NCBI GenBank assembly: GCA_014169315.1 | Contig: AP022133.1 | Span: forward strand, 620,001 to 684,000 | Origin: Enterobacter cloacae | GTDB taxonomy: Bacteria > Pseudomonadota > Gammaproteobacteria > Enterobacterales > Enterobacteriaceae | Length of the DNA stretch: 64,000 nucleotides | Reading direction: 5' to 3' | Part shown: one piece after another, positions 5,734 through 56,759 of the stretch | How positions within the stretch are numbered: position 1 is the stretch's first letter | How the letters are laid out: every line of letters starts with the position of its first letter | Notes under the pieces: model-generated | What the model was told of the DNA's origin: nothing | What the model saw: the letters and a program-made list of their open reading frames with translations, nothing else | Database searches by the model: none | Made by a program: the position numbers and the translations under genes

Positions 5734-5765
5734 AATGCCAGTCACTTGTTGACTGGCATTTTTTC
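5734..5765. terminator. Bidirectional terminator between ispH and the LysR gene
   Basis: Perfect 11-bp inverted repeat AATGCCAGTCA / TGACTGGCATT with a five-base loop, followed by TTTTT on the plus strand. The convergent LysR gene ends inside the hairpin (stop at 5742-5744), so one structure appears to serve both genes. Confidence 0.85.
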
Positions 5766-6647
5766 AGTCAGATAGTTGATCATTGCCCGCATTCTGGCGG
5801 GCATATGTTTGTTACGCGTCCAAAGCAGCCAGAGTTCACCCGTATAGCTGCTGATAAACTCCCACTGTGGCAGCACCTGCACAATTTCCCCCTTTTCCAG
5901 AGCCTCACGTGCCGTAAACAGCGGTAAACTCCCAATGCCGACATGACGTTTGACCGCATCCAGCCGCACGCCCGTGTGGTTAGCCGCGTAACGTCCGTGC
6001 GTCTGTACGATCTCCGTTTTTCCCTGCAACGTAAATTTCCAGCGTGAATCGGCCGGGGTTTCACCGAGCGAAATACAGCTATATGACCGGAGGTCGTGCG
6101 GATGTTGTGGCGTGCCTGCGCGACGAAGATATTCTGGCGTGGCGCAAATAACATGGGTTACTGGCATCAGCGGTTTTCCGTACAGGCCAGGAGAGGGAGT
6201 ATTGGTGATCCGTAATGCCAGATCGACACCATCATCGATCAGATCCATGTAACGATCTTCCAGACGCAGGCAGACGTCAATTTGTGGATAGCGCTCCAGG
6301 AACGCCGGGATCAGCGGATGGATCACAAACCGTCCCACGGCTTTCGGTACGCTCACCGTGAGCTTTCCCTGTGCAACGGTTTGCAGACTGCTACCGGAAT
6401 CCATTGCCTGTTGTGCTGCTTCCAGCATATCCAAAGCATGTTCATAAACCGATTTTCCGGTTTCGGTAAGTGCCAGCTTGCGCGTGGTGCGGTGCAGTAA
6501 CTTAGATCCCATCTCCTTCTCGAGGCGTGAAACACAACGACTGATCGCTGAGGGCGTTGCTCCCGTCATACGGGCTGCAGTTGAAAAATTGCCGTGTTCT
6601 ACGATGGTCACGAAGGTGGCAAGATCGGGAAGCAGTGCAGGTTTCAT
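5742..6647 (-). CDS. LysR-family transcriptional regulator
   Basis: 301 residues. An N-terminal winged helix-turn-helix (about 5-64) carries the LysR signature GNFSTAARMTGATPSAISRCVSRLEKE. A substrate-binding domain follows with the DLALRI motif (GVDLALRITNTPSPG, about 165), typical of the AaeR/DsdC-like group that acts on small aromatic or amino-acid-like inducers. It is divergent from the AlaX-like gene with 92 bp between starts, the normal LysR arrangement, so that gene is its likely target. This pair is absent at this position in E. coli K-12. The inducer is unknown. Confidence 0.88.
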   Translation of the reverse strand: MKPALLPDLATFVTIVEHGNFSTAARMTGATPSAISRCVSRLEKEMGSKLLHRTTRKLALTETGKSVYEHALDMLEAAQQAMDSGSSLQTVAQGKLTVSVPKAVGRFVIHPLIPAFLERYPQIDVCLRLEDRYMDLIDDGVDLALRITNTPSPGLYGKPLMPVTHVICATPEYLRRAGTPQHPHDLRSYSCISLGETPADSRWKFTLQGKTEIVQTHGRYAANHTGVRLDAVKRHVGIGSLPLFTAREALEKGEIVQVLPQWEFISSYTGELWLLWTRNKHMPARMRAMINYLTEKMPVNK

Positions 6648-6739: not shown

Positions 6740-7381
6740 ATGACAGAACGACTTTATTACACAAGTGAAGCGACAGAAGGCCGCGCGAAGGTGATCCGTT
6801 GCACTGAAGAGCCTGATGGTCGCTATGCCGTTGAGCTGGATCAGACCCTTTTCCATCCGCAGGGTGGCGGACAGCCAGCGGACCGGGGGTTGATCGCGGG
6901 GATCGCGGTGGAGGGGGTGAGCCTGCGCGGGGAGCAAGTCATTCATATTCTGGCTCGACCGCTTGTGCCAGGCGAGGTGGAAATGCAGGTCGATAAAAGC
7001 GCGCGAGTGCGTCATTCCCGCTGGCACAGCGCAGGCCATTTGATTGGTTGTGCCGGTGAGCAATTTGGCTGGGAGCCGGTGAAAGCTCATCACTGGCCAG
7101 GTGAAGGACGGATTACCTTTGTGCCACGAGAGCCGCAGGCGTCACTGCCTGATGCAAACAGGCTGAGCGCGATGATTGACGGCTGGAAAGCGGACAACCT
7201 GCTTCGTCAGACCGAAATTGAAGCGGGCAGACGCAGGGTTCGCTTTGGCGATCTCCCGGCCTATCCGTGTGGCGGAACGCATGTAAGACAGCTGGCGGAA
7301 ATAGGGGAGATGCAGCTCATCGGGCTGAAAATGAAAAAAGGACAGCTGGTGGTCACTTATACCCTCCACGAGCAGGAGTAA
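6740..7381 (+). CDS. AlaX-type alanyl-tRNA editing hydrolase
   Basis: 213-residue free-standing homologue of the AlaRS editing domain. It carries both zinc/catalytic motifs: HxxxH as HSAGH (H96, H100) and CxxxH as CGGTH (C177, H181), plus the amino-terminal LFHPQGGGQPADRG segment. Family members deacylate Ser-tRNA-Ala or Gly-tRNA-Ala in trans. The GGAG ribosome site ends ten bases before ATG 6740. It is divergent from a LysR regulator, which is unexpected for a housekeeping quality-control enzyme and suggests an inducible role. The exact substrate cannot be read from sequence. Confidence 0.85.
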   Translation: MTERLYYTSEATEGRAKVIRCTEEPDGRYAVELDQTLFHPQGGGQPADRGLIAGIAVEGVSLRGEQVIHILARPLVPGEVEMQVDKSARVRHSRWHSAGHLIGCAGEQFGWEPVKAHHWPGEGRITFVPREPQASLPDANRLSAMIDGWKADNLLRQTEIEAGRRRVRFGDLPAYPCGGTHVRQLAEIGEMQLIGLKMKKGQLVVTYTLHEQE

Positions 7382-7398: not shown

Positions 7399-7423
7399 CG
7401 ACAGAGCGGGGGGCTGAGCAGGA

Positions 7424-7439
7424 GGTTAACCGGTTAATC
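7424..7439. promoter_or_regulatory. Predicted LacI-family operator A before the cupin isomerase operon
   Basis: Near-perfect 16-bp palindrome GGTTAACCGGTTAATC with the central CG pair typical of LacI-family sites, 42 nt upstream of the ATG at 7482. It matches sites at 13166, 13197 and 13288 around the lacI-type gene, linking the two ends of the locus into one predicted regulon. Confidence 0.65.
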
Positions 7440-7481
7440 TGGTAAGCTTGTCATGTTGTTCTCCTCGGGCCGGAGATAAAC

Positions 7482-8045
7482 ATGAACTCTGACGTTATCC
7501 TGCCACCCCAGGTGGCGTGGGCCAGCGGTGTATTCGCTAACGGTCCACTTATCCGCAAGACGACACACATCGCCGATCTGCCTGGCGTTTTCATTGATGA
7601 CGATGCCTGGCGTGGCTGCGAACCGCGGCAGCGCGTCTATGACGTTGAAATGCTCGACTCCCCGTCGGACGAAGGGTCGCTGTACGTTGGCGTGACCCAT
7701 CTTTACGCGGGCAAAATCGGTGATGAGTTCTTTATGACGCGCGGTCATTTTCACCAGCGCCGCGAACAGGGCGAGGTCTATTTTGGCCTGCGTGGATGTG
7801 GCTTGCTGCTGCTTCAGACGCCATCCGGTGAGGCACGCCTTGAACGCGTGAAGGCCGGTTCCGTGCACATCATTCCCTCTTTCAGCGCGCACCGTCTGAT
7901 TAACACGGGTGAAGACACCCTTTCTGCGCTGGCGGTCTGGCCCAGCGTGGCCGGACACGACTATGCGGCATTGGCCGGTGGTTTTTCGCTTCGTGTATTT
8001 GCCTCTGAACATCACCCGCAGGGATGGGAGGTCGGAAATGGTTAA
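7482..8045 (+). CDS. Cupin-type glucose-6-phosphate isomerase homologue
   Basis: 187 residues, a single cupin barrel of the archaeal-type phosphoglucose isomerase family (GPI cupin). Metal ligands are visible as GHFH (H89, H91), the glutamate of GEVYFGLRG (E98) and a later histidine (SAHR, H137). This H-x-H...E...H spacing matches the family's metal site almost residue for residue. It probably interconverts an aldose-6-phosphate and a ketose-6-phosphate. CGGAG precedes the ATG at 7482. Its stop overlaps the next cupin gene by 8 bases. Enterobacteria use an unrelated housekeeping Pgi, so this is a specialised accessory enzyme. Confidence 0.82.
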   Translation: MNSDVILPPQVAWASGVFANGPLIRKTTHIADLPGVFIDDDAWRGCEPRQRVYDVEMLDSPSDEGSLYVGVTHLYAGKIGDEFFMTRGHFHQRREQGEVYFGLRGCGLLLLQTPSGEARLERVKAGSVHIIPSFSAHRLINTGEDTLSALAVWPSVAGHDYAALAGGFSLRVFASEHHPQGWEVGNG

Positions 8046-8808
8046 CGTTGGACTGGATATAGCCATCACACACTGTCCATTGGGTTTTAGCTATGGAGAG
8101 GATGTGACCGGACCGATGCCGGAGATCCGCACGCTGGATCAGATCCGCCCATCGCTGCGCAACCCGGATTGCGAAGGACCAGAGCAGGTGTACGCCATCG
8201 CGATGGACGTGGCACGCCTGGCGGACAGGCAAGAACTCGAAAAACGGATGCTGCTTTTTGGCGTGGTCACCTACGCCGCAGGCACGCTCGGCGATGAACC
8301 GGTCCGCAGTCAGGGGCATATCCATCGCATTAGCCAACACAGCGGATGGTCGCCGCCTGAGCTGTATGAAATCTGGCAGGGTAAAGCGATTATCTACATG
8401 CAGGAGTATGTTGACGACGATCCGGGCCGCTGTTTTGCGGTGCTCGCGGGGCCTGGTGAAAAAGTGCTGGTCCCTCCCGGATGGGGACATGCAACCATTT
8501 CGGCCTCTCCCGAAGAGCCGCTGACGTTTGGTGCGTGGTGTGACCGGGAATATGGTTTTGAGTATGATGCCGTTCGCGCGCGAAAAGGTCTGGCCTGGTA
8601 TCCCTTAGTTCAGGGAAATCATATTGTCTGGCAGCACAATAGCCACTACAGACCGGGGCGATTACAGGTGATTACGCCGCGTAGTTATTCTGAGTTCGGT
8701 ATTACTGATGCGCCTGTTTATCAGCAGTTTATTGACGATCCGGCGCGGTTCCAGTTTATTTCGCGCCCGGATAAAACGGCAGCACTGTGGGATAACTTCC
8801 ATCCATAG
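8038..8808 (+). CDS. Second cupin-type phosphosugar isomerase homologue
   Basis: 256 residues. Start 8038 is chosen because it gives MVNVGLDIAITHCP and overlaps the previous gene by 8 bases, as in coupled operons; the open frame continues upstream without conservation. The cupin metal motif is present: GHIH (H94, H96), the glutamate of PELYEIWQG (E108) and a distal histidine (GWGHATIS, H151). Like its neighbour it belongs to the GPI cupin family but is about 70 residues longer, with extra N- and C-terminal segments. The two may be subunits of one enzyme or act on different sugar phosphates. It ends at a terminator shared with the convergent PTS operon. Confidence 0.78.
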   Translation: MVNVGLDIAITHCPLGFSYGEDVTGPMPEIRTLDQIRPSLRNPDCEGPEQVYAIAMDVARLADRQELEKRMLLFGVVTYAAGTLGDEPVRSQGHIHRISQHSGWSPPELYEIWQGKAIIYMQEYVDDDPGRCFAVLAGPGEKVLVPPGWGHATISASPEEPLTFGAWCDREYGFEYDAVRARKGLAWYPLVQGNHIVWQHNSHYRPGRLQVITPRSYSEFGITDAPVYQQFIDDPARFQFISRPDKTAALWDNFHP

Positions 8809-8810
8809 AA

Positions 8811-8833
8811 GGACCGGGGCATTGCCCCGGTTC
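8811..8833. terminator. Bidirectional terminator between cupin and PTS operons
   Basis: GGACCGGGGC, three-base loop ATT, GCCCCGGTTC: a 10-bp stem lying between two convergent operons, two bases from each stop codon. Confidence 0.8.
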
Positions 8834-8835
8834 TC

Positions 8836-9654
8836 TTATCCTGCAAACAAACCGGACGCCACCCCCAGCGCCGCGAGTATAAGCAGCAATATCATGGCTT
8901 TTACCGGTGACACGCCGCGTTTGGCCATCAGATACCAGGTTCCCAGCACCACGGCCAGCGGAAGCAACTGCGGGAAAATACCGTCCAGCATCTGCTGTAC
9001 GTGAATGTTAACCCCGTCCCGCGTGATGAACTCCAGCCCGGTACCGAGCTTCACATAGCTGGCCGCCACACCACCCATGACGAATACGCCCAGCAACGAG
9101 AGCGCTTCCCGTAGTCGGGTGGATTTGCTGCTGACCAGCATCTCTACGGAGCCTGAACCCATCTGGTAGCCTTTAAGAAACAGGAACCAGGAGCCCGGGA
9201 TAATAATGGCCAGCCAGGCGACGGTATAAAACAGCGGGCCAAGGATATTTCCACCTGCCGCCAGCGCCATCCCGATGCTGAGAAGGATCGGAATAAGCAT
9301 CCCGGGGATCATTGAATCACCGATCCCGGCGATCGGCCCCATCAGGCCCACCTTCAGGGTGTTAATGGTTTCGCCGTCAATTGGCTCACCGTTGGCTTTC
9401 TTCTCTTCCAGCCCCAGCGCCATACCGTTAACAATTGCGCCAATTTGTGGCTCAGTGTTGTAGAACGACGCGTGACGGCGCAGCATCTCGGTGCGTTGAG
9501 CCGCATCGGGATAGAGTTTTTTTGCCACCGGCAGCATGCTCAGGCAGAAGCCGAAGGATTCCAGGCGTTCAAAGCTCATTGAGGAGAGGTTGTGCATCAT
9601 CCACGCCCGCCAGCAGCGGCGCAGATCCTTGCGGGTGAGTTTACGTTCTTCCAT
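8836..9654 (-). CDS. PTS mannose/fructose/sorbose family, IID component
   Basis: 272-residue membrane subunit of a mannose-class phosphotransferase system. The cytoplasmic N-terminal half carries the family pattern LTRKDLRRCWRAWMMHNLSSMSFERLESFGFC. The GPIAGIGDS segment is seen at about 110, and hydrophobic segments follow at about 120-160, 186-205 and 228-270. Its ATG overlaps the IIC stop by one base (TGATG), giving the usual IIC-IID coupling. It is the last gene of the operon. With IIC it forms the sugar channel; the transported sugar is not evident. Confidence 0.92.
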   Translation of the reverse strand: MEERKLTRKDLRRCWRAWMMHNLSSMSFERLESFGFCLSMLPVAKKLYPDAAQRTEMLRRHASFYNTEPQIGAIVNGMALGLEEKKANGEPIDGETINTLKVGLMGPIAGIGDSMIPGMLIPILLSIGMALAAGGNILGPLFYTVAWLAIIIPGSWFLFLKGYQMGSGSVEMLVSSKSTRLREALSLLGVFVMGGVAASYVKLGTGLEFITRDGVNIHVQQMLDGIFPQLLPLAVVLGTWYLMAKRGVSPVKAMILLLILAALGVASGLFAG

Positions 9655-10451
9655 CAGAATTCATCCTCGTCGTCAGGGACCGGTGCTGAAGTCACGGTCT
9701 GCGGTGTTTCGGGTTTGTAGTTGTAATGGATCAATGCCAGCAGGGCACCCACGATCACCAGCGCGACCATATTGAGTTTCAGGAAAACGATGCAGACGAA
9801 GCCCACCAGGAAGTAGATGAGCATGGTGTAGCTTTTGATGATCTGCTTAAGCAGGATGGCAATACCGACAGCGGGTAAAATGCCGCCCAGCACGTTCATG
9901 GTGGAGAGGACGATGTGCGGCAGGCTGTCCATAAAACCGCTAATGTACTGCGCGCCAAAAAAGACGGCGATAAAGGTGGGCACAAAGCGCAGCACAAAAT
10001 TCATCGCCTGCGGCCAGATGGCGCTGTTGAGGTAGATGCCGCGTTCATCGCCGTGTTCCAGCGCTACATCCGCCCGATGATTCCAGAACGAGTTCAGCAC
10101 CATCATCGCATTAAAGAGAATGGTTCCGGCGATACCGATAGTCGCTGCCAGCGCGACGGCAACCTCGGGTCCTTTGCCGGAAAGTATCCCCAGCGCAATG
10201 GCCGGATAAGCCACAAAGTTTAAATCTGCTGGCATCGAGCCGCCGGGGGTCACCATCGCGATATACACCGCCTGCACCGCTACGCCAATCATAATCCCGG
10301 TTTTGATATCGCCCAGGATCAGGCCAACCAGCATCCCGGAAATGAGCGGTCGGGAGATGAGATACCAGCCGCCGGTCAGCCCTAAAAGCCACGGGCTACT
10401 GAGTGCCCCCAGATAACACAGCAGGCCAATTAAAGACGCTTCAATAATCAT
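9654..10451 (-). CDS. PTS mannose/fructose/sorbose family, IIC component
   Basis: 265-residue integral membrane subunit with about seven hydrophobic stretches. The family features YLGALSSPWL near the N-terminus and the segment VTPGGSMPADLNFVAYPAIALGI (about 68-90) are clear; this glycine-rich region contributes to the sugar site in the family. The C-terminus ends in an acidic tail, DDEDEF. It starts 10 nt after the IIB stop with a GGAGC ribosome site and overlaps IID by one base. Confidence 0.92.
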   Translation of the reverse strand: MIIEASLIGLLCYLGALSSPWLLGLTGGWYLISRPLISGMLVGLILGDIKTGIMIGVAVQAVYIAMVTPGGSMPADLNFVAYPAIALGILSGKGPEVAVALAATIGIAGTILFNAMMVLNSFWNHRADVALEHGDERGIYLNSAIWPQAMNFVLRFVPTFIAVFFGAQYISGFMDSLPHIVLSTMNVLGGILPAVGIAILLKQIIKSYTMLIYFLVGFVCIVFLKLNMVALVIVGALLALIHYNYKPETPQTVTSAPVPDDEDEF

Positions 10452-10461
10452 GATCTGCTCC

Positions 10462-10956
10462 TTATTTCAGCTTTTGTCTGGCATCCTGCCAGCTATAAAA
10501 ACTGGCATCGGGAACCAGGCGGAATTCAATCGCGTGTCCCTGGACGGTCAGCCACTCGAACGCCGCTGCTTCATCTTTCGTTACCGATTGATTCGGACCG
10601 ATGGTGATCGTATTCGCGCGAGCGCTCATCGGCCCTACGTTGATTTTACCGTTGCTGTTTTTCAGGCTAATACCTGCCTGTTCAATGCGCTGCAGCGTGA
10701 GCGGTGATTTGCCAATAACGAAATAGCGCTTCTCGCTGGCAATCACTTTTGGCAGTTTTTCGATCGCGGTTGCCGTATCGAACAGCCACACTTTGGTATC
10801 GGAGACCGCCCCTTTCATGACCGACGATAACAGCGGATCGGCCGCGACGGCATCGTCAATGGCAACGATGCCGTCGCAGGGCAGCTCCCTGGCCCAGCGT
10901 GTAATGAGCTGCCCGTGGATCACGCGGTCGTCAATGCGTACAAAAGAAATACTCAT
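10462..10956 (-). CDS. PTS mannose/fructose/sorbose family, IIB component
   Basis: 164-residue soluble phosphocarrier. The active-site histidine is H14 in RIDDRVIHGQL, the invariant motif of mannose-class IIB proteins, which passes phosphate from IIA to the sugar bound at IIC/IID. IIA and IIB are separate genes here, unlike the fused ManX of E. coli, as in many sorbose- and fructose-type systems. It begins 10 nt after the IIA stop. Confidence 0.93.
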   Translation of the reverse strand: MSISFVRIDDRVIHGQLITRWARELPCDGIVAIDDAVAADPLLSSVMKGAVSDTKVWLFDTATAIEKLPKVIASEKRYFVIGKSPLTLQRIEQAGISLKNSNGKINVGPMSARANTITIGPNQSVTKDEAAAFEWLTVQGHAIEFRLVPDASFYSWQDARQKLK

Positions 10957-10966
10957 ATGCGGCTCC

Positions 10967-11395
10967 TTAAAAATCGTCTGTCTGTGCTGTATCTACCCGT
11001 TTCGCCTGTACCAGCGTTGGCAGCGCGAGTTCGATAATGTGTGCGGCAGCATGATGAACATCGCATGCCATCATCACCTCGTCGGTTTGCAGTAGCATCG
11101 GGAAGTTGACCCCCGCCACCACGGCGACCGGTGGCCGCGCATGCGGACTAAACGCGGCCTCACAGGCCACGTTCCACGGTGTGCCGCTTTGCATATCGCA
11201 CAATACCAGCACGCCGTCAGCGTTGACGCTTGCCGCTTCCAGCGTGGTGCTGAAATCACGGCGAAAGCCCTCTATCCCCGCCTGTTCAGTCAGACAAACG
11301 GCGTGTACGCAGGGAAGGTCGCCATAAACCATCCGGCTGCTCTCCAGCAGCGCGGCGGCAAGTGGACCGTGGGTCGCGACAATAAAATGAATCAT
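10967..11395 (-). CDS. PTS mannose-family IIA component
   Basis: 142-residue cytoplasmic IIA. The phosphorylatable histidine is H9 in VATHGPLA, placed as in ManX. The fold is supported by the beta-strand pattern VLVLCDMQSGTPWNVA and VVAGVNFPMLL, where GVNxPML is a family landmark. Its start is two bases after the stop of the phosphomannose isomerase-like gene, so it belongs to the same transcript. Confidence 0.9.
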   Translation of the reverse strand: MIHFIVATHGPLAAALLESSRMVYGDLPCVHAVCLTEQAGIEGFRRDFSTTLEAASVNADGVLVLCDMQSGTPWNVACEAAFSPHARPPVAVVAGVNFPMLLQTDEVMMACDVHHAAAHIIELALPTLVQAKRVDTAQTDDF

Positions 11396-11397
11396 CG

Positions 11398-13140
11398 TTA
11401 GCTCCTTACCCAGGCTTTGATGGTCGCCAGTGGCCGCCCGGAGGTATTGGCTGATGGTGAAATGCGGTATTCCCCCACGCTGGCCGGAATGATGAAGGTT
11501 TCGGCGTAATGGACGGTAAATGGCTCAAATGCACCGGTCGGGCTGTCGACAATTGCTTCGCCGCCCTCTACCAGATTCAGCACATTCACGCCGCCGCTGG
11601 TGTGATGCACAACGGGTTCACTAAACCAGTGGCGGCGGGTTTCGATAAATTCACGCTCGTGCAGGCCGGTGCGTTCTTCGCGCCAGCGGTTTCCTTCGGC
11701 AATGGGTTCAAACTGATTCACCAGATGTTGGTGGACCCACTGCGTGTCGCGCTGCCAGTCGATCACCTTTTCGCCATGTTCCAGATGTACCGGACGCGGC
11801 AGACCGTCCAGACCCAGACGGCCCCAGTCCCACAGTTTGAAGGTGAAGATATACGGCGTGGCGCTGATCTCCAGTACCATTGTTCCCGCGCCGGAGCAGT
11901 GCACCGTACCTGCAGGGATCAGGAAATGGTCATGTTTTTTCGCCGGGATCTGATTAACGAACCGGGCGTCATCAAACGTTTTTTCACCACGGCCCGCACG
12001 TCTGAGGTCGTCCATCATCGCCTGCGGATCGGTACCGGTTTTGGTGCCCAGATAGACCACAGCCCCCGGCCTGGCTTCCAGAATGTAATAGCTCTCATCC
12101 TGGGTGTAGTGCATCCCGAACTGCTGCTGGATGTACTCGGTAATGGGGTGGACCTGGAAGCTCAGATTCTGGCCGCCAATGGTATCGAGGAAGTCAAAAC
12201 GGATCGGGAACTCCGCACCGAAACGTGCGTGAACTTTCTCGCCCAGCAGAGCACGAGGCTCGAGCAAGACCAGATCCTGAGAGGGGATCTCGATCCGCAC
12301 TGCACCAAAACGCAGTAACAGGCTGTTCTCCTCGGGCACGCAGTCAAAACACCATGCGTAATTGGCGGCAGAGGGATCGAGATCGAATTGCTGTTTCATC
12401 CACTGGCCGCCCCAGACGCCAGGATCGAAAAATGGCACCACGCGGAAAGGCTGAGTGGTGGTCTGCTCAAGCCCGGCTCGCAGGGCCTCACCGCTGACCA
12501 TCGCGGGCTGGTTTTTCCGGGTCGTATCCAGTAAAAAATCGGCGCGCCTGAGCAGCGGTGTTTTGTGGCGATCGAAGACGCGCCATTCGACAAAAAAAGC
12601 GCGTTTGTAGCGACGCAGCATATCTTCATGCTGATTCGCTGCTCCCCAGTTCCCCATCTCACCGCTGCGCATACGCTGCTGGATCTCCCAGCGCGGAAGA
12701 TCGGCATACACCAGAACATCACCCGGATGGATAAGCGCCGCACCGGGGCCGTAAATCACAATCAGCCCCCCGGAGCACTGGTTCACCTGATTCTGCAGCG
12801 CATCCAGACGAGCGGGATCAAAAAACTCACCAAGCTGGTGGCAGGAGAGTACGCCAAAGACGCGATCGTCGGTGAGGTTGCGTGCAAGCATCTCATGGAT
12901 GGCAAACTCATCCTGTCGCGCCTGTTCGGCATTAATCGTTAGCGTTGGACGTAACCGCGGCAGCACGTTGTCTTCAAGTTCGGTCAGGCGAACACCCGGA
13001 TAGCAATCAATCACCAGGACGGTGCGGCTGTGCTGTTGGGTTTTTGCATCAAGGATGCGGGTAATCGCCTCCCATCCTTGCCAGGCGCTGTCGTCATAAC
13101 CCTGAATCATCACCGTGGGGAATTTGTCGTAGGTTGTCAT
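11398..13140 (-). CDS. Class I mannose-6-phosphate isomerase-like protein with extra N-terminal domain
   Basis: 580 residues. Start 13140 (MTTYDKFP) is preceded by GGAGG at ideal spacing; a start at 13158 has no such site. The C-terminal part (from about residue 235) is a type I phosphomannose isomerase-like cupin with the zinc ligands in place: SFQVHP (Q329, H331), DESYY (E349) and PAGTVHCSGAG (H414). The first 220 or so residues form a separate domain resembling a nucleotide- or sugar-kinase fold (VLVIDCYP, GGLIVIYGPGAAL), without a classical Walker A; I cannot assign its function. It is roughly 190 residues longer than ManA. It is first in the PTS operon and likely isomerises the imported sugar phosphate. 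Confidence 0.82.
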   Translation of the reverse strand: MTTYDKFPTVMIQGYDDSAWQGWEAITRILDAKTQQHSRTVLVIDCYPGVRLTELEDNVLPRLRPTLTINAEQARQDEFAIHEMLARNLTDDRVFGVLSCHQLGEFFDPARLDALQNQVNQCSGGLIVIYGPGAALIHPGDVLVYADLPRWEIQQRMRSGEMGNWGAANQHEDMLRRYKRAFFVEWRVFDRHKTPLLRRADFLLDTTRKNQPAMVSGEALRAGLEQTTTQPFRVVPFFDPGVWGGQWMKQQFDLDPSAANYAWCFDCVPEENSLLLRFGAVRIEIPSQDLVLLEPRALLGEKVHARFGAEFPIRFDFLDTIGGQNLSFQVHPITEYIQQQFGMHYTQDESYYILEARPGAVVYLGTKTGTDPQAMMDDLRRAGRGEKTFDDARFVNQIPAKKHDHFLIPAGTVHCSGAGTMVLEISATPYIFTFKLWDWGRLGLDGLPRPVHLEHGEKVIDWQRDTQWVHQHLVNQFEPIAEGNRWREERTGLHEREFIETRRHWFSEPVVHHTSGGVNVLNLVEGGEAIVDSPTGAFEPFTVHYAETFIIPASVGEYRISPSANTSGRPLATIKAWVRS

Positions 13141-13165
13141 CTTATCCTCCGTAATCACTATTTAA

Positions 13166-13181
13166 GGTTATTCGATTAACC
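13166..13181. promoter_or_regulatory. Predicted LacI-family operator B before the PMI/PTS operon
   Basis: GGTTATTCGATTAACC, a 16-bp near-palindrome with central CG, 25 nt upstream of the PMI-like ATG at 13140. It fits the same consensus as the sites at 7424 and 13288. Confidence 0.7.
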
Positions 13182-13196
13182 GCATTTGAGAAGAGT

Positions 13197-13213
13197 GGTT
13201 AACGCGATTAACC
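13197..13213. promoter_or_regulatory. Predicted LacI-family operator C, one base longer
   Basis: GGTTAACGCGATTAACC has the same arms as its neighbours (GGTTAA/TTAACC, a perfect inverted repeat) but a five-base centre instead of four. Its centre lies about 31.5 bp, three helical turns, from operator B. Confidence 0.55.
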
Positions 13214-13287
13214 CGCCATATACACGAATGAAATCCGGATCGGCGGCGGTAATGTGAAGAGACTCACACGGAAAAATGCAAAAAATA

Positions 13288-13303
13288 GGTTATTCGATTA
13301 ATC
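13288..13303. promoter_or_regulatory. Predicted LacI-family operator D (autoregulation)
   Basis: GGTTATTCGATTAATC differs from operator B at one base. It lies 24 nt upstream of the lacI-type ATG at 13328, mirroring B before the divergent operon, as expected for an autoregulated repressor. Confidence 0.7.
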
Positions 13304-13327
13304 TGTAGTGATGTTTAAGGAGACAAC

Positions 13328-14335
13328 ATGACGGGAATTACACTGGTTGATGTCGCGAAACGCGCCGGCGTGTCAACGGCGACGGTCTCTATGGTGCTCT
13401 GCAACAAAGGTCGCATTTCGCAAAGTACCCGCGAACGCGTGCTTAAGGCGCTGGACGAGTCCGGTTATGTCTATAACCAGACGGCGGCCAATTTGCGTAA
13501 CCGCAGCAGTAATCAGGTCGGGCTGCTATTGCACGATATCACCAACCCTTTTTACGGAGAGATGACGGCAGGGCTAAGTCATGAAATGGAGCGCCATGAA
13601 CTGCTGCTTTTTCTGGCGAATAGCGAGGAATCCGCAGAGCGACAGCAAAAATTTGTTGATTCGCTGATGCGCAATAACGTCGGCGGTATGGTGCTGTGTG
13701 CCGCCCGCGAAACGCCACAGGCCTTTTTTGATGGACTGAAGCGGCGCAGCATTCCGGCTATCATGGTTGTGCGCCCGCTGAACGATCCGGATTTTGATTT
13801 TGTCGGCACGGACAACTTCTTAGGCACGCAGATGGCGACAGAACATCTGCTCAGAATAGGCCATCGGCATATTGCGTTTATTGGGGGGAGCCAGAACTCG
13901 GGCTCACGGGCGCAGCGTATCGGTGGCTTTACCAGCAAGCTGCTGGAATACGGCGTGACACCGAATCCTGCCTGGATCAGGACGTCGCAGGCCAGCCAAA
14001 GCGACGGCGCGCGCGTGGCGGAGGCGTTACTGCTTGAGCATCCAAACATCAGCGCTGCGATTTGCTATCAGGATATTGTGGCGCTGGGGGTGATGCAAAG
14101 TTTACGCAAGCTGGGCCGTGAACCGGGGCGTGATTTTGCGCTGGTCGGTTTTGATGACATTACCGAAGCGGCTCTGGTGCAGCCTGCATTGACCACCGTA
14201 TCAGTGGCGGCAAAAGAGATTGGCCGTAAGGCGGGGGAATTACTGTACAGCCGCATACAGGGTAATGACGAACCCGCCAAACGGATCATCCTGCCGCCAG
14301 CGCTGGTGGTGCGGGAATCATGTGGTTTCCGCTGA
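13328..14335 (+). CDS. LacI-family transcriptional repressor of the sugar locus
   Basis: 335 residues. The N-terminal LacI helix-turn-helix (ITLVDVAKRAGVSTATVSMV, residues 4-23) is followed by the hinge (about 50-60, ANLRNRSSNQVGLL) and a periplasmic-binding-protein-like effector domain (DITNPFYGEM, GFDDITEAALVQPALTTV). It resembles the MalI subgroup. A TAAGGAG ribosome site precedes ATG 13328. It is divergent from the PMI/PTS operon, with three predicted operators in the 187-bp gap and a fourth at the distal cupin operon. The effector is probably a sugar phosphate of the pathway (inference). Confidence 0.9.
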   Translation: MTGITLVDVAKRAGVSTATVSMVLCNKGRISQSTRERVLKALDESGYVYNQTAANLRNRSSNQVGLLLHDITNPFYGEMTAGLSHEMERHELLLFLANSEESAERQQKFVDSLMRNNVGGMVLCAARETPQAFFDGLKRRSIPAIMVVRPLNDPDFDFVGTDNFLGTQMATEHLLRIGHRHIAFIGGSQNSGSRAQRIGGFTSKLLEYGVTPNPAWIRTSQASQSDGARVAEALLLEHPNISAAICYQDIVALGVMQSLRKLGREPGRDFALVGFDDITEAALVQPALTTVSVAAKEIGRKAGELLYSRIQGNDEPAKRIILPPALVVRESCGFR

Positions 14336-15290: not shown

Positions 15291-15343
15291 GATTTATTAC
15301 CCATCGTGATGTGGTTATTGCAGTCGTAATTGATTGATTGCAT

Positions 15344-15371
15344 AGGGCAATATTTTATTGCCCTTTTATTT
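15344..15371 (+). terminator. Rho-independent terminator of dapB
   Basis: AGGGCAAT, loop ATTTT, ATTGCCCT: a perfect 8-bp stem followed by TTTATTTT. Confidence 0.85.
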
Positions 15372-15695
15372 TATCTTCTTTAATGTCATTTGATTCATTA
15401 ATTGTCAAAAATAACAGTTTTCGTCAGGTTTTATGTTGCTGGACTGTAAATTTTGACCATCTGGTCTACTTTTTGTTGTTGCGACGTCTTAATTTCTATT
15501 AAACTTACTGCGCAAGCGTTTTCTGATGTGATTTACCTGATCTTTTTGTCGCTTAAGTCGCTTTCAGGCCGCCAGTCCCGCAAAAGAATAAACAAAATAT
15601 CCGTTTTAAGTTGACTTTTACCCTCTGAATATCCAGAATGCCGCCGTTTGCCAAAAATCCGCTGGCAACAAATTTGCATTGCTTCGTAACGTAGT
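15372..15695 (+). promoter_or_regulatory. carAB upstream control region
   Basis: AT-rich intergenic stretch without a gene. By position it corresponds to the E. coli carAB control region, which holds the pyrimidine/purine-regulated P1 promoter (PepA, IHF, PurR and RutR targets) and the arginine-regulated P2. Apart from the PurR-like box listed separately, I do not assign individual sites. Confidence 0.6.
15510..15525. promoter_or_regulatory. Probable PurR operator of carAB
   Basis: GCGCAAGCGTTTTCTG matches the PurR consensus ACGCAAACGTTTTCGT at 12 of 16 positions, including the CGCAA and CGTTTTC cores. It sits about 220 bp before carA, where a purine-regulated site is known in E. coli. Confidence 0.65.
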
Positions 15696-46686: not shown

Positions 46687-46729
46687 TTTGCACCTCAAAG
46701 TTGAGTGGCAAAGGATTTTGAGCGACAGC
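46684..46729 (-). promoter_or_regulatory. Expression platform: hairpin sequestering the thiB ribosome site
   Basis: On the minus strand CTTTGCCACTC pairs imperfectly with GAGGTGCAAAG, which contains the thiB Shine-Dalgarno sequence and ends at the GTG start. This suggests translational control when TPP binds the aptamer just upstream (inference). Confidence 0.6.
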
Positions 46730-46815
46730 CTCAAATCCCTTCGCCGGCGTTATCCGGATCAGGTTCGACGGGTATTATCTCAGCGCACATCAGTGATGCA
46801 GCACCCCGTTGAGAA
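46730..46815 (-). ncRNA. TPP riboswitch (THI box) of thiBPQ
   Basis: The minus strand reads GGGGTGC, then GCTGAGATAATACCCG, then GAACCTGATCCGGATAA, then GCCGGCGAAGGGAT: the conserved THI-box helices in order. It lies in the 5' leader of the thiamine transporter operon, the expected place. Confidence 0.95.
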
Positions 46816-46854
46816 CGGCGGTATTGTAATGATTTGGCGAATATTACGAAAGTG

Positions 46855-48577: not shown

Positions 48578-48823
48578 GATGAAGTGAGGAGGTAAATTAT
48601 GAAGAGGTCTACCGCACGTCAGTTTTATCAGCAGTACTTTTCAGCGACAAAAGGAGTGTCCTGGCTGGCCCGTCAGTGTGCAGATCAACGGCTGAGAACG
48701 CTGGAAGAATTGATGCAGTGGGACGTTACGAAAACGACCTTTTCTCGCTAACTCACCTCGATCATGTGTGACTGAGTATTGGTGCTAATCACCCGCCAGC
48801 AAAATGTTTTTGCTGGCTTTTTT
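48578..48823 (+). ncRNA. sgrS: Small RNA SgrS
   Basis: Dual-function sRNA of about 246 nt made when sugar phosphates accumulate; with Hfq it represses ptsG. The start GATGAAG matches the E. coli 5' end. The ptsG-pairing segment GTGTGACTGAGTATTGGTG (48766-48784) is perfectly conserved. It ends with a GCCAGCAAAA/TTTTGCTGGC terminator and a T-run. It encodes SgrT in its 5' half. Confidence 0.95.
48599..48751 (+). CDS. sgrT: SgrT, glucose transport inhibitor peptide
   Basis: 50 codons within SgrS, with a strong GAGGAGG ribosome site. The core is homologous to E. coli SgrT (43 residues): RQFYQQYFSAT, WLARQ, QRLRTLEELMQWD. The N-terminus MKRSTA is about six residues longer than in E. coli, and the tail (VTKTTFSR) differs. 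SgrT blocks glucose transport through PtsG at the protein level in E. coli. The stop at 48751 precedes the base-pairing region by 14 nt. Confidence 0.9.
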   Translation: MKRSTARQFYQQYFSATKGVSWLARQCADQRLRTLEELMQWDVTKTTFSR

Positions 48824-48871
48824 CGTTTACTATTTCACCCAATTTCGATTCGCTTTGACAAGGATTTGCGC

Positions 48872-56590: not shown

Positions 56591-56620
56591 AAAAAAACCC
56601 GCGCAATGGCGCGGGTTTTT
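56591..56620 (-). terminator. leu operon attenuator terminator
   Basis: Minus strand: ACCCGCGC, loop CATT, GCGCGGGT, then a seven-T run. It lies between leuL and leuA. An alternative 9-bp pairing CCAGTCTAC/GTAGACTGG (56659-56667 with 56695-56703) overlaps the leucine codons, as expected for ribosome-dependent attenuation. Confidence 0.92.
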
Positions 56621-56638
56621 AGTCTTACTGGTGACGAT

Positions 56639-56725
56639 TCAACGCTGAATTTCGCCCGCCAGTCTACCGCGCACAGTGGATGCGTTTAGTAGTAGTAGAC
56701 TGGTGAAACGAATGGTGCGAATCAT
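56639..56725 (-). CDS. leuL: leu operon leader peptide
   Basis: 28 residues, MIRTIRFTSLLLLNASTVRG followed by RLAGEIQR. It contains four consecutive leucines, all encoded by the rare codon CTA, so a shortage of charged tRNA-Leu stalls the ribosome and favours antitermination. Same length and layout as the E. coli and Salmonella leaders. Confidence 0.95.
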   Translation of the reverse strand: MIRTIRFTSLLLLNASTVRGRLAGEIQR

Positions 56726-56759
56726 GAATCGTGCTCCCGTTAAATACGATATGCATTTA

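Follow-up and report, generated by a model that had tools for sequence, protein, structure and literature searches.

Gene content and position of the locus

The window analysed here is a stretch of 64,000 nt from Enterobacter cloacae, and all coordinates are positions in it. At 7,482–14,335 it carries a locus with genes for two cupins (GPI1 and GPI2), a mannose-class phosphotransferase system (PTS), a protein resembling type I phosphomannose isomerase (PMI) and a LacI-family regulator. The original prediction had described eight genes in this order between ispH and dapB; all eight are present with open frames, and the locus does lie between the end of ispH (5725) and the start of dapB (14469), where E. 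coli K-12 presumably carries rihC. The genes and their putative operators are as follows.

7423..7439, plus strand: putative operator 1, AGGTTAACCGGTTAATC, upstream of GPI1; one of only three exact matches in the genome
7482..8045, plus strand: GPI1, cupin of PF06560, 187 amino acids (82 bits against a cut-off of 20.7)
8038..8808, plus strand: GPI2, cupin of PF06560 with a C-terminal extension, 256 amino acids
8836..9654, minus strand: PTS IID, mannose class (PF03613, E 1.1e-87)
9654..10451, minus strand: PTS IIC, mannose class (PF03609, E 1.3e-64)
10462..10956, minus strand: PTS IIB, mannose class, with the motif RIDDRVIHGQ (PF03830, E 5.8e-35)
10967..11395, minus strand: PTS IIA, mannose class, with the motif THGPLA (PF03610, E 4.4e-17)
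11398..13158, minus strand: PMI-like protein (type I) whose N-terminal domain has a kinase fold but no P-loop; likely start at 13140
13165..13181, plus strand: putative operator 2, AGGTTATTCGATTAACC, on the PMI side of the PMI/LacI intergenic region
13287..13303, plus strand: putative operator 3, AGGTTATTCGATTAATC, on the LacI side of the same region
13328..14335, plus strand: LacI-family regulator, 335 amino acids (PF00356, PF00532; MalI subfamily model NF007449, 314.8 bits against a cut-off of 310)

The reading frames of GPI1 and GPI2 share 8 bases. On the minus strand PMI, IIA, IIB, IIC and IID follow each other closely in this order, and LacI is divergent from PMI. All four PTS subunits score above the curated Pfam cut-offs, and we take the histidines in THGPLA (IIA) and RVIHGQ (IIB) to be the active phosphorylatable ones. 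In profile searches no member of a kinase, aldolase or dehydrogenase family appears among the eight proteins, as had been claimed.

Conservation in enteric bacteria

For comparison we scanned for GPI2 and kept the best 80 of 291 relatives, 65 of them enteric (L063–L127) and 15 from other bacteria (L128–L142). By tblastn, all eight genes occur in 63 of the 65 enteric loci and are full length in 60; in the other three (L069, L070 and L085) the retrieved sequence stops within LacI. The remaining two loci are incomplete: the stretch of L118 ends inside PMI, and L107 (Buttiauxella sp. B2) retains GPI1 and GPI2 alone, followed by unrelated genes in place of PTS, PMI and LacI. Both ispH and dapB are found in 37 of the enteric stretches and one of them in 13, while 15 hold neither, including those of Serratia and Yersinia, so that the genomic place varies among enterics. 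One record titled Chryseobacterium (L084, CACSKA010000010.1) contains a locus of enteric type flanked by ispH and dapB and is probably mislabelled.

PMI is sparse across the Enterobacterales, being full length in 8 of 295 genomes, our own included (two further matches are short and below 32% identity). Within the family, 13 of 149 genomes, again including our own, carry GPI2 above 70% identity, and one more has just a distant relative. Searches of the complete E. coli genomes, near for the locus and distant for the GPI2 gene, returned no match; the locus is present in L087, which is labelled E. coli, and in E. whittamii (L081). The closest named PMI protein matches come mostly from Enterobacter, Leclercia, Lelliottia and Raoultella.

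A shared operator

A near-palindrome with the consensus GGTTAATCGATTAACC occurs once before GPI1 and twice in the gap between PMI and LacI. The exact pattern has three matches in the 5.0 Mb genome, all within the locus; it was derived from these three sites, so that the argument is circular here, though not in the relatives. With up to two mismatches, 17 strand-wise matches are found in the same genome, compared to 4 for the reversed pattern. In 63 of the 65 enteric loci (all except L082 and L115) the 200 bp before GPI1 contain a site with at most two mismatches. The 400 bp before LacI contain such a site in every one of the 63 loci that have this gene, and in 56 of them two or more. At one mismatch or fewer, the 65 loci (1.31 Mb) contain 178 sites, compared to none for the reversed pattern. 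Since the three exact operators all fall in the locus and operators are kept in the enteric loci, these data support a predicted single regulon of eight genes with its own PTS and isomerases.

Active-site residues of the two cupins

GPI1 matches the archaeal cupin phosphoglucose isomerase (PGI) by profile (E 3.7e-55), and its metal ligands (HxH, E and H) are kept in 25 of 25 module proteins. According to the accessible part of PMC6627849, Tyr152 and His158 are the proton-transfer residues of P. furiosus PGI. At the position of Tyr152 all 25 GPI1 proteins have Trp, whereas the proteins of T. litoralis and S. meliloti have Tyr. The His158 equivalent is kept in 23 of the 25; L129 and L134 have Tyr instead, and the S. 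meliloti protein used for comparison has Gln. GPI2, which has an additional C-terminal helical part, retains the glutamate and the cupin metal ligands (HxH, E and H; His94, His96, Glu108 and His151 are invariant), and at the positions of Tyr152 and His158 it has Cys168 and Phe174, also invariant (overlapping sets of 22 and 23 proteins). Neither cupin carries the complete pair of proton-transfer residues that characterises a cupin PGI. The original prediction had assumed that both are phosphoglucose isomerases, an assumption weakened by these losses. With the catalytic residues of cupin PGIs replaced, the name 'glucose-6-phosphate isomerase' is doubtful for the two proteins, and judging from their residues we consider it reasonably likely that they act on something other than glucose-6-phosphate.

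A distant GPI2 relative was found on a Salmonella plasmid (NZ_MT507880.1; L046, 6261–9996) in an operon-like row of ptsG, this gene, hxlB and hxlA among resistance genes. HxlB shifts the carbonyl between C2 and C3, and the row is possibly another uncharacterised phosphosugar route. A link to our locus was dropped, the relative being 26% identical with the Cys168 and Phe174 positions missing in the alignment.

The PMI-like protein

Starting at the ATG at 13140, PMI has 580 amino acids, as in its closest homologues. About 225 extra N-terminal residues, missed by the original prediction, form a pantothenate-kinase-like fold without a P-loop that is conserved from Bacillota to Bacteroidota. The protein matches PMI structures both by profile and by fold, although its score to PF20511 (16.1 bits) stays below the curated cut-off of 22. 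Residues Q335, H337, E355 and H420, presumably the zinc ligands of a type I PMI (Gln, His, Glu, His), are conserved in at least 95% of the 33 PMIs compared. A tree of 33 PMIs covers 25 proteins of module loci and 8 of loci that lack the cupins. The C-terminal half of the predicted model is poor (mean pLDDT, the model's own confidence score, 67.2), and for this reason no active-site geometry was taken from it. The genome also encodes a canonical ManA-type PMI and three further IID proteins.

The isomerase module outside the Enterobacterales

Twenty loci outside the Enterobacterales were compared (L128–L142, L157–L159 and the plasmid records L044 and L045). They were found via GPI2 and ranked by GPI2 similarity, and are therefore not a random draw. 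GPI1 lies near GPI2 in all 20, PMI is found in 17 (it is absent from L044, L129 and L142), a ROK kinase in 14 and a labelled sugar-porter relative in 12, one weak match of 24% being excluded. The neighbouring hydrolases vary between GH2, GH127-like, GH13-like, GH1 with a PTS EIIC, and cellulase-like (GH denotes glycoside hydrolase families), and several scanned neighbours had no match. The Cohnella locus without PMI (L129) has transporter-like genes, and a zinc dehydrogenase and an FGGY kinase directly precede its GPI2–GPI1; this would suit a ketose-6-phosphate that joins the route downstream of PMI. A database protein of 441 amino acids (P0121) has two cupin domains and a 91% match to GPI2, in line with a GPI1–GPI2 fusion. 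Whole-genome searches for a wider sample found loci in 3 of 299, 2 of 295, 2 of 245 and 2 of 251 genomes, centre genomes included, and added three new loci. GPI1 and GPI2, usually with PMI, thus recur as a module in other phyla, its known range being Pseudomonadota, Bacteroidota, Bacillota, Acidobacteriota and Calditrichota.

A proposed route and its sugar

We favour, with a probability of roughly 0.45, the explanation that the locus is a catabolic island of accessory character, controlled by LacI and centred on a conserved isomerase module. That a phosphosugar is taken up and then isomerised into glycolysis is highly probable: it is the simplest reading of a locus without kinase, aldolase or dehydrogenase, and the idea, already part of the original prediction, fits the presence of a dedicated PTS and isomerases. 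IIABCD would import a hexose as its 6-phosphate, and elsewhere a sugar porter with a ROK kinase, or a glycosidase, would feed the same module. The isomerases would then shift the carbonyl until fructose-6-phosphate is reached, with no further enzyme needed. GPI1, an altered active site on a cupin PGI scaffold, would together with PMI interconvert aldose-6-phosphates and 2-ketose-6-phosphates, and GPI2, with both proton-transfer residues replaced, may act at C2/C3, either by direct inversion of C3 or via a 3-ketose.

Migration of the carbonyl between C1 and C3 spares C4 and C5, and therefore connects only the phosphates of glucose, mannose, allose, altrose, fructose, allulose and the 3-hexuloses. 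For glucose, mannose and fructose no additional enzymes are required (a ManA-type PMI is present and a PGI is presumed), which leaves the C3-epimers D-allose, D-altrose and D-allulose (of glucose, mannose and fructose, respectively); these would reach fructose-6-phosphate without an AlsE-type epimerase. The genome has one gene of the ribulose-phosphate 3-epimerase family, outside the locus and presumably rpe, so that there is no AlsE candidate. A sugar of this C3-epimeric class is possible, if somewhat unlikely, and the PMI step probably also handles mannose-6-phosphate. The further proposal is distinctly doubtful: GPI1 and GPI2 would represent a novel group of cupin isomerases for sugar phosphates, in which GPI2, by shifting the carbonyl of hexulose-6-phosphates between C2 and C3 or by inverting C3 directly, would together with GPI1 and PMI give C3-epimers an AlsE-independent entry into glycolysis in five phyla. 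Two other routes were rejected: one via 1,5-anhydroglucitol or anhydromannitol requires a glycyl-radical enzyme according to the accessible part of PMC12441222, and none is among the eight genes; in the other, cupins moving the carbonyl toward mannose-6-phosphate ahead of PMI, the chemistry must already pass through fructose-6-phosphate.

Evidence for mannose and the alternatives

Several observations weigh against a rare hexose and for mannose. In the tree of PMIs the module and non-module labels need six changes, and 62 of 500 shuffles are as low, so the module PMIs do not form a kind of their own; two Hymenobacter PMIs, one under each label, are sisters with 100/99 support. This interleaving suggests plain mannose-6-phosphate isomerase activity. 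Mannosidase-family genes are present in five of the eight loci without cupins (L023, L024, L025, L052 and L053, the GH38 of the last detected by tblastn), and none was seen in the other three, from Listeria (L021), Deinococcus (L022) and Photobacterium (L026). In three Bacteroidota records, PMI relatives of 53–57% identity that lack the cupins have GH92, GH38, GH76 and kinase genes as neighbours. L052 and L053, from other families of the order, combine a LacI of 71% and 55% identity, respectively, to that of the window with PMI, GH38, a PTS EII gene and degenerate versions of the operator motif; no cupins were seen in their stretches of 20 and 10.9 kb. Two Listeria records filed as plasmids, L021 (NZ_LR134401.1; 809 kb) and NZ_CP030101.1 (2.9 Mb), appear to be parts of chromosomes.

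In the enterics, a GH38 alpha-mannosidase gene is found in 8 of the 65 loci (L069, L070, L071, L076, L085, L093, L095 and L127). Seven of these also have a fructose-type EIIABC, which was not seen in L093, whose stretch ends there, and in several loci the GH38 and PTS genes beside or inside the locus have operators of the same type. A second PMI in L076, one of the module rows of the tree, adjoins GH38 outside the PTS operon. Two GH2 neighbours elsewhere (L135 and L158) carry a mannosidase Ig-like domain. The fructose-type EIIABC frames beside GH38 are split or shortened in L085 (17836–19813) and L095 (17771–18715). GH1 and EIIC genes lie inside the PTS operon in L073 and L076, and also accompany the module in Salibacterium (L140; GH1 53% and EIIC 36% identical); the GH1 C-termini keep only part of a phosphate-binding motif. 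The locus, originally described as self-contained, is so in this genome, but some relatives add an alpha-mannosidase and PTS, or a GH1 glycosidase and EIIC.

The chemistry and spread of the module add to these difficulties. PMI is not strictly part of the module, given the three loci without it, the argument for a C2/C3 shift by GPI2 is purely chemical, and allose and altrose are rare in nature and ill-suited to a module found in several phyla. For the PMI of B. amyloliquefaciens, the accessible part of PMC4718643 gives 81,000 units with mannose-6-phosphate, 2.1 with D-allose and at most 31 with the other listed sugars, a comparison that is only a hint because the other sugars were unphosphorylated. 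Since the same PMI family, in two loci with the same LacI type, adjoins alpha-mannosidase genes, the metabolites of the regulon very likely include mannose-6-phosphate. The inducer of LacI may accordingly be manno-configured. A survey of LacI regulons describes, in its accessible part, a ManR group for mannose and mannosides (PMC4052901), and its supplement may hold a named regulon matching this locus. The 'uncommon hexose' of the original prediction is thus plausible but unproven, the PMI and LacI relatives beside alpha-mannosidase genes pointing to mannose.

Taken furthest, this evidence would make the locus one for mannose or mannosides, in which the PTS delivers mannose-6-phosphate, PMI converts it to fructose-6-phosphate and the cupins are auxiliary isomerases, for example leading from fructose-6-phosphate to glucose-6-phosphate or handling anomers. 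The interleaved PMIs, the Bacteroidota neighbourhoods, the gene sets of L052 and L053, the enteric GH38 with EIIABC and the Ig-like domains are all consistent with it. However, the genome already has a ManA-type PMI and three more IID genes, two dedicated cupins with altered catalytic residues would be left without a role, L052 and L053 showed no cupins at all, and the other glycosidases adjoining the module outside the enterics are GH2, GH127-like, GH13-like and GH1, so we regard it as rather unlikely. Those differing glycosidase families would also suit another sugar, such as a branched hexose, an amino-acid conjugate or a disaccharide, on which one cupin, likeliest GPI2, performs a reaction new to the family (skeleton rearrangement or cleavage); that GPI2 retains metal ligands and glutamate, lacks both Tyr152 and His158 and has the extra helical part points the same way, and still we find this improbable. 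Redundant uptake of glucose or mannose, with GPI1 and GPI2 as plain metal-dependent glucose-6-phosphate isomerases, would agree with the membership of both in PF06560 and with a review that, in its accessible part, describes the cupin PGIs of bacteria and archaea as specific for glucose-6-phosphate and fructose-6-phosphate (PMC12965863). It is very improbable in view of Tyr152 being replaced in 25 of 25 GPI1 proteins and both residues in GPI2, and of two such genes under a private regulator having no evident use beside the presumed own PGI.

That the module stays together across five phyla, with these two atypical cupins present throughout the loci examined, suggests an unrecognised sugar, or an unrecognised route for a known rare sugar, frequent enough for selection. 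This would fill a gap in carbohydrate metabolism and correct many 'glucose-6-phosphate isomerase' annotations, and could possibly provide metal-dependent isomerases for rare-sugar production.

Other features of the window

The interval between ispH and dapB also contains two genes missed by the original prediction, a LysR gene (5742–6647, minus strand) and, in the gap between ispH and the locus, an alanyl-tRNA-editing-like (AlaXM-like) gene (6740–7381, plus strand); this pair beside ispH is found in only some enteric relatives. RNA matches in the window are DapZ (15296–15373), a thiamine pyrophosphate (TPP) riboswitch (46718–46818), SgrS (48578–48824) and a leucine leader (56591–56739).

Comparison with known systems

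The original prediction knew of no named pathway with this gene set, and our literature search, from which subscription papers were mostly out of reach, found no description of one. The D-allose pathways of E. coli (als) and Listeria (lmo0734–0739) likewise lead from a phosphosugar through an isomerase to fructose-6-phosphate. E. coli uses AlsI (allose-6-phosphate isomerase) and AlsE (allulose-6-phosphate epimerase), whereas in the window the cupins and PMI would substitute, and no AlsE-type allulose-6-phosphate 3-epimerase is present in the locus. For the Listeria locus, the accessible part of PMC5893763 mentions a LacI regulator, a PTS and a phospho-beta-glucosidase, and to that extent the layout of our locus (LacI and PTS) parallels it. 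As to mannosylglycerate utilisation (MngAB), several enterics carry relatives of MngA and MngB next to or within the locus, together with operator sites of this type, but neither the GH38 hydrolase nor the fructose-type EIIABC is among the window's eight genes, and the homologues in L076 are well under the MngA and MngB cut-offs.

ManXYZ with ManA also combines a mannose-class PTS with a type I PMI; the window locus differs in having separate IIA and IIB, an N-terminally extended PMI, a private LacI and two cupins. Mannose-class PTSs also occur in enterics in the glucoselysine/fructoselysine (Gfr) and D-glucosaminate loci, unlike which none of the eight proteins here matches a SIS-domain deglycase or a dehydratase. 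With the archaeal and bacterial cupin PGIs of PF06560, GPI1 and GPI2 have the fold, the metal ligands and the catalytic glutamate in common, but GPI1 lacks Tyr152, and GPI2 lacks Tyr152 and His158 and has a C-terminal extension. In summary, the protein families are known, and their combination, their spread and the altered cupins appear to be new.

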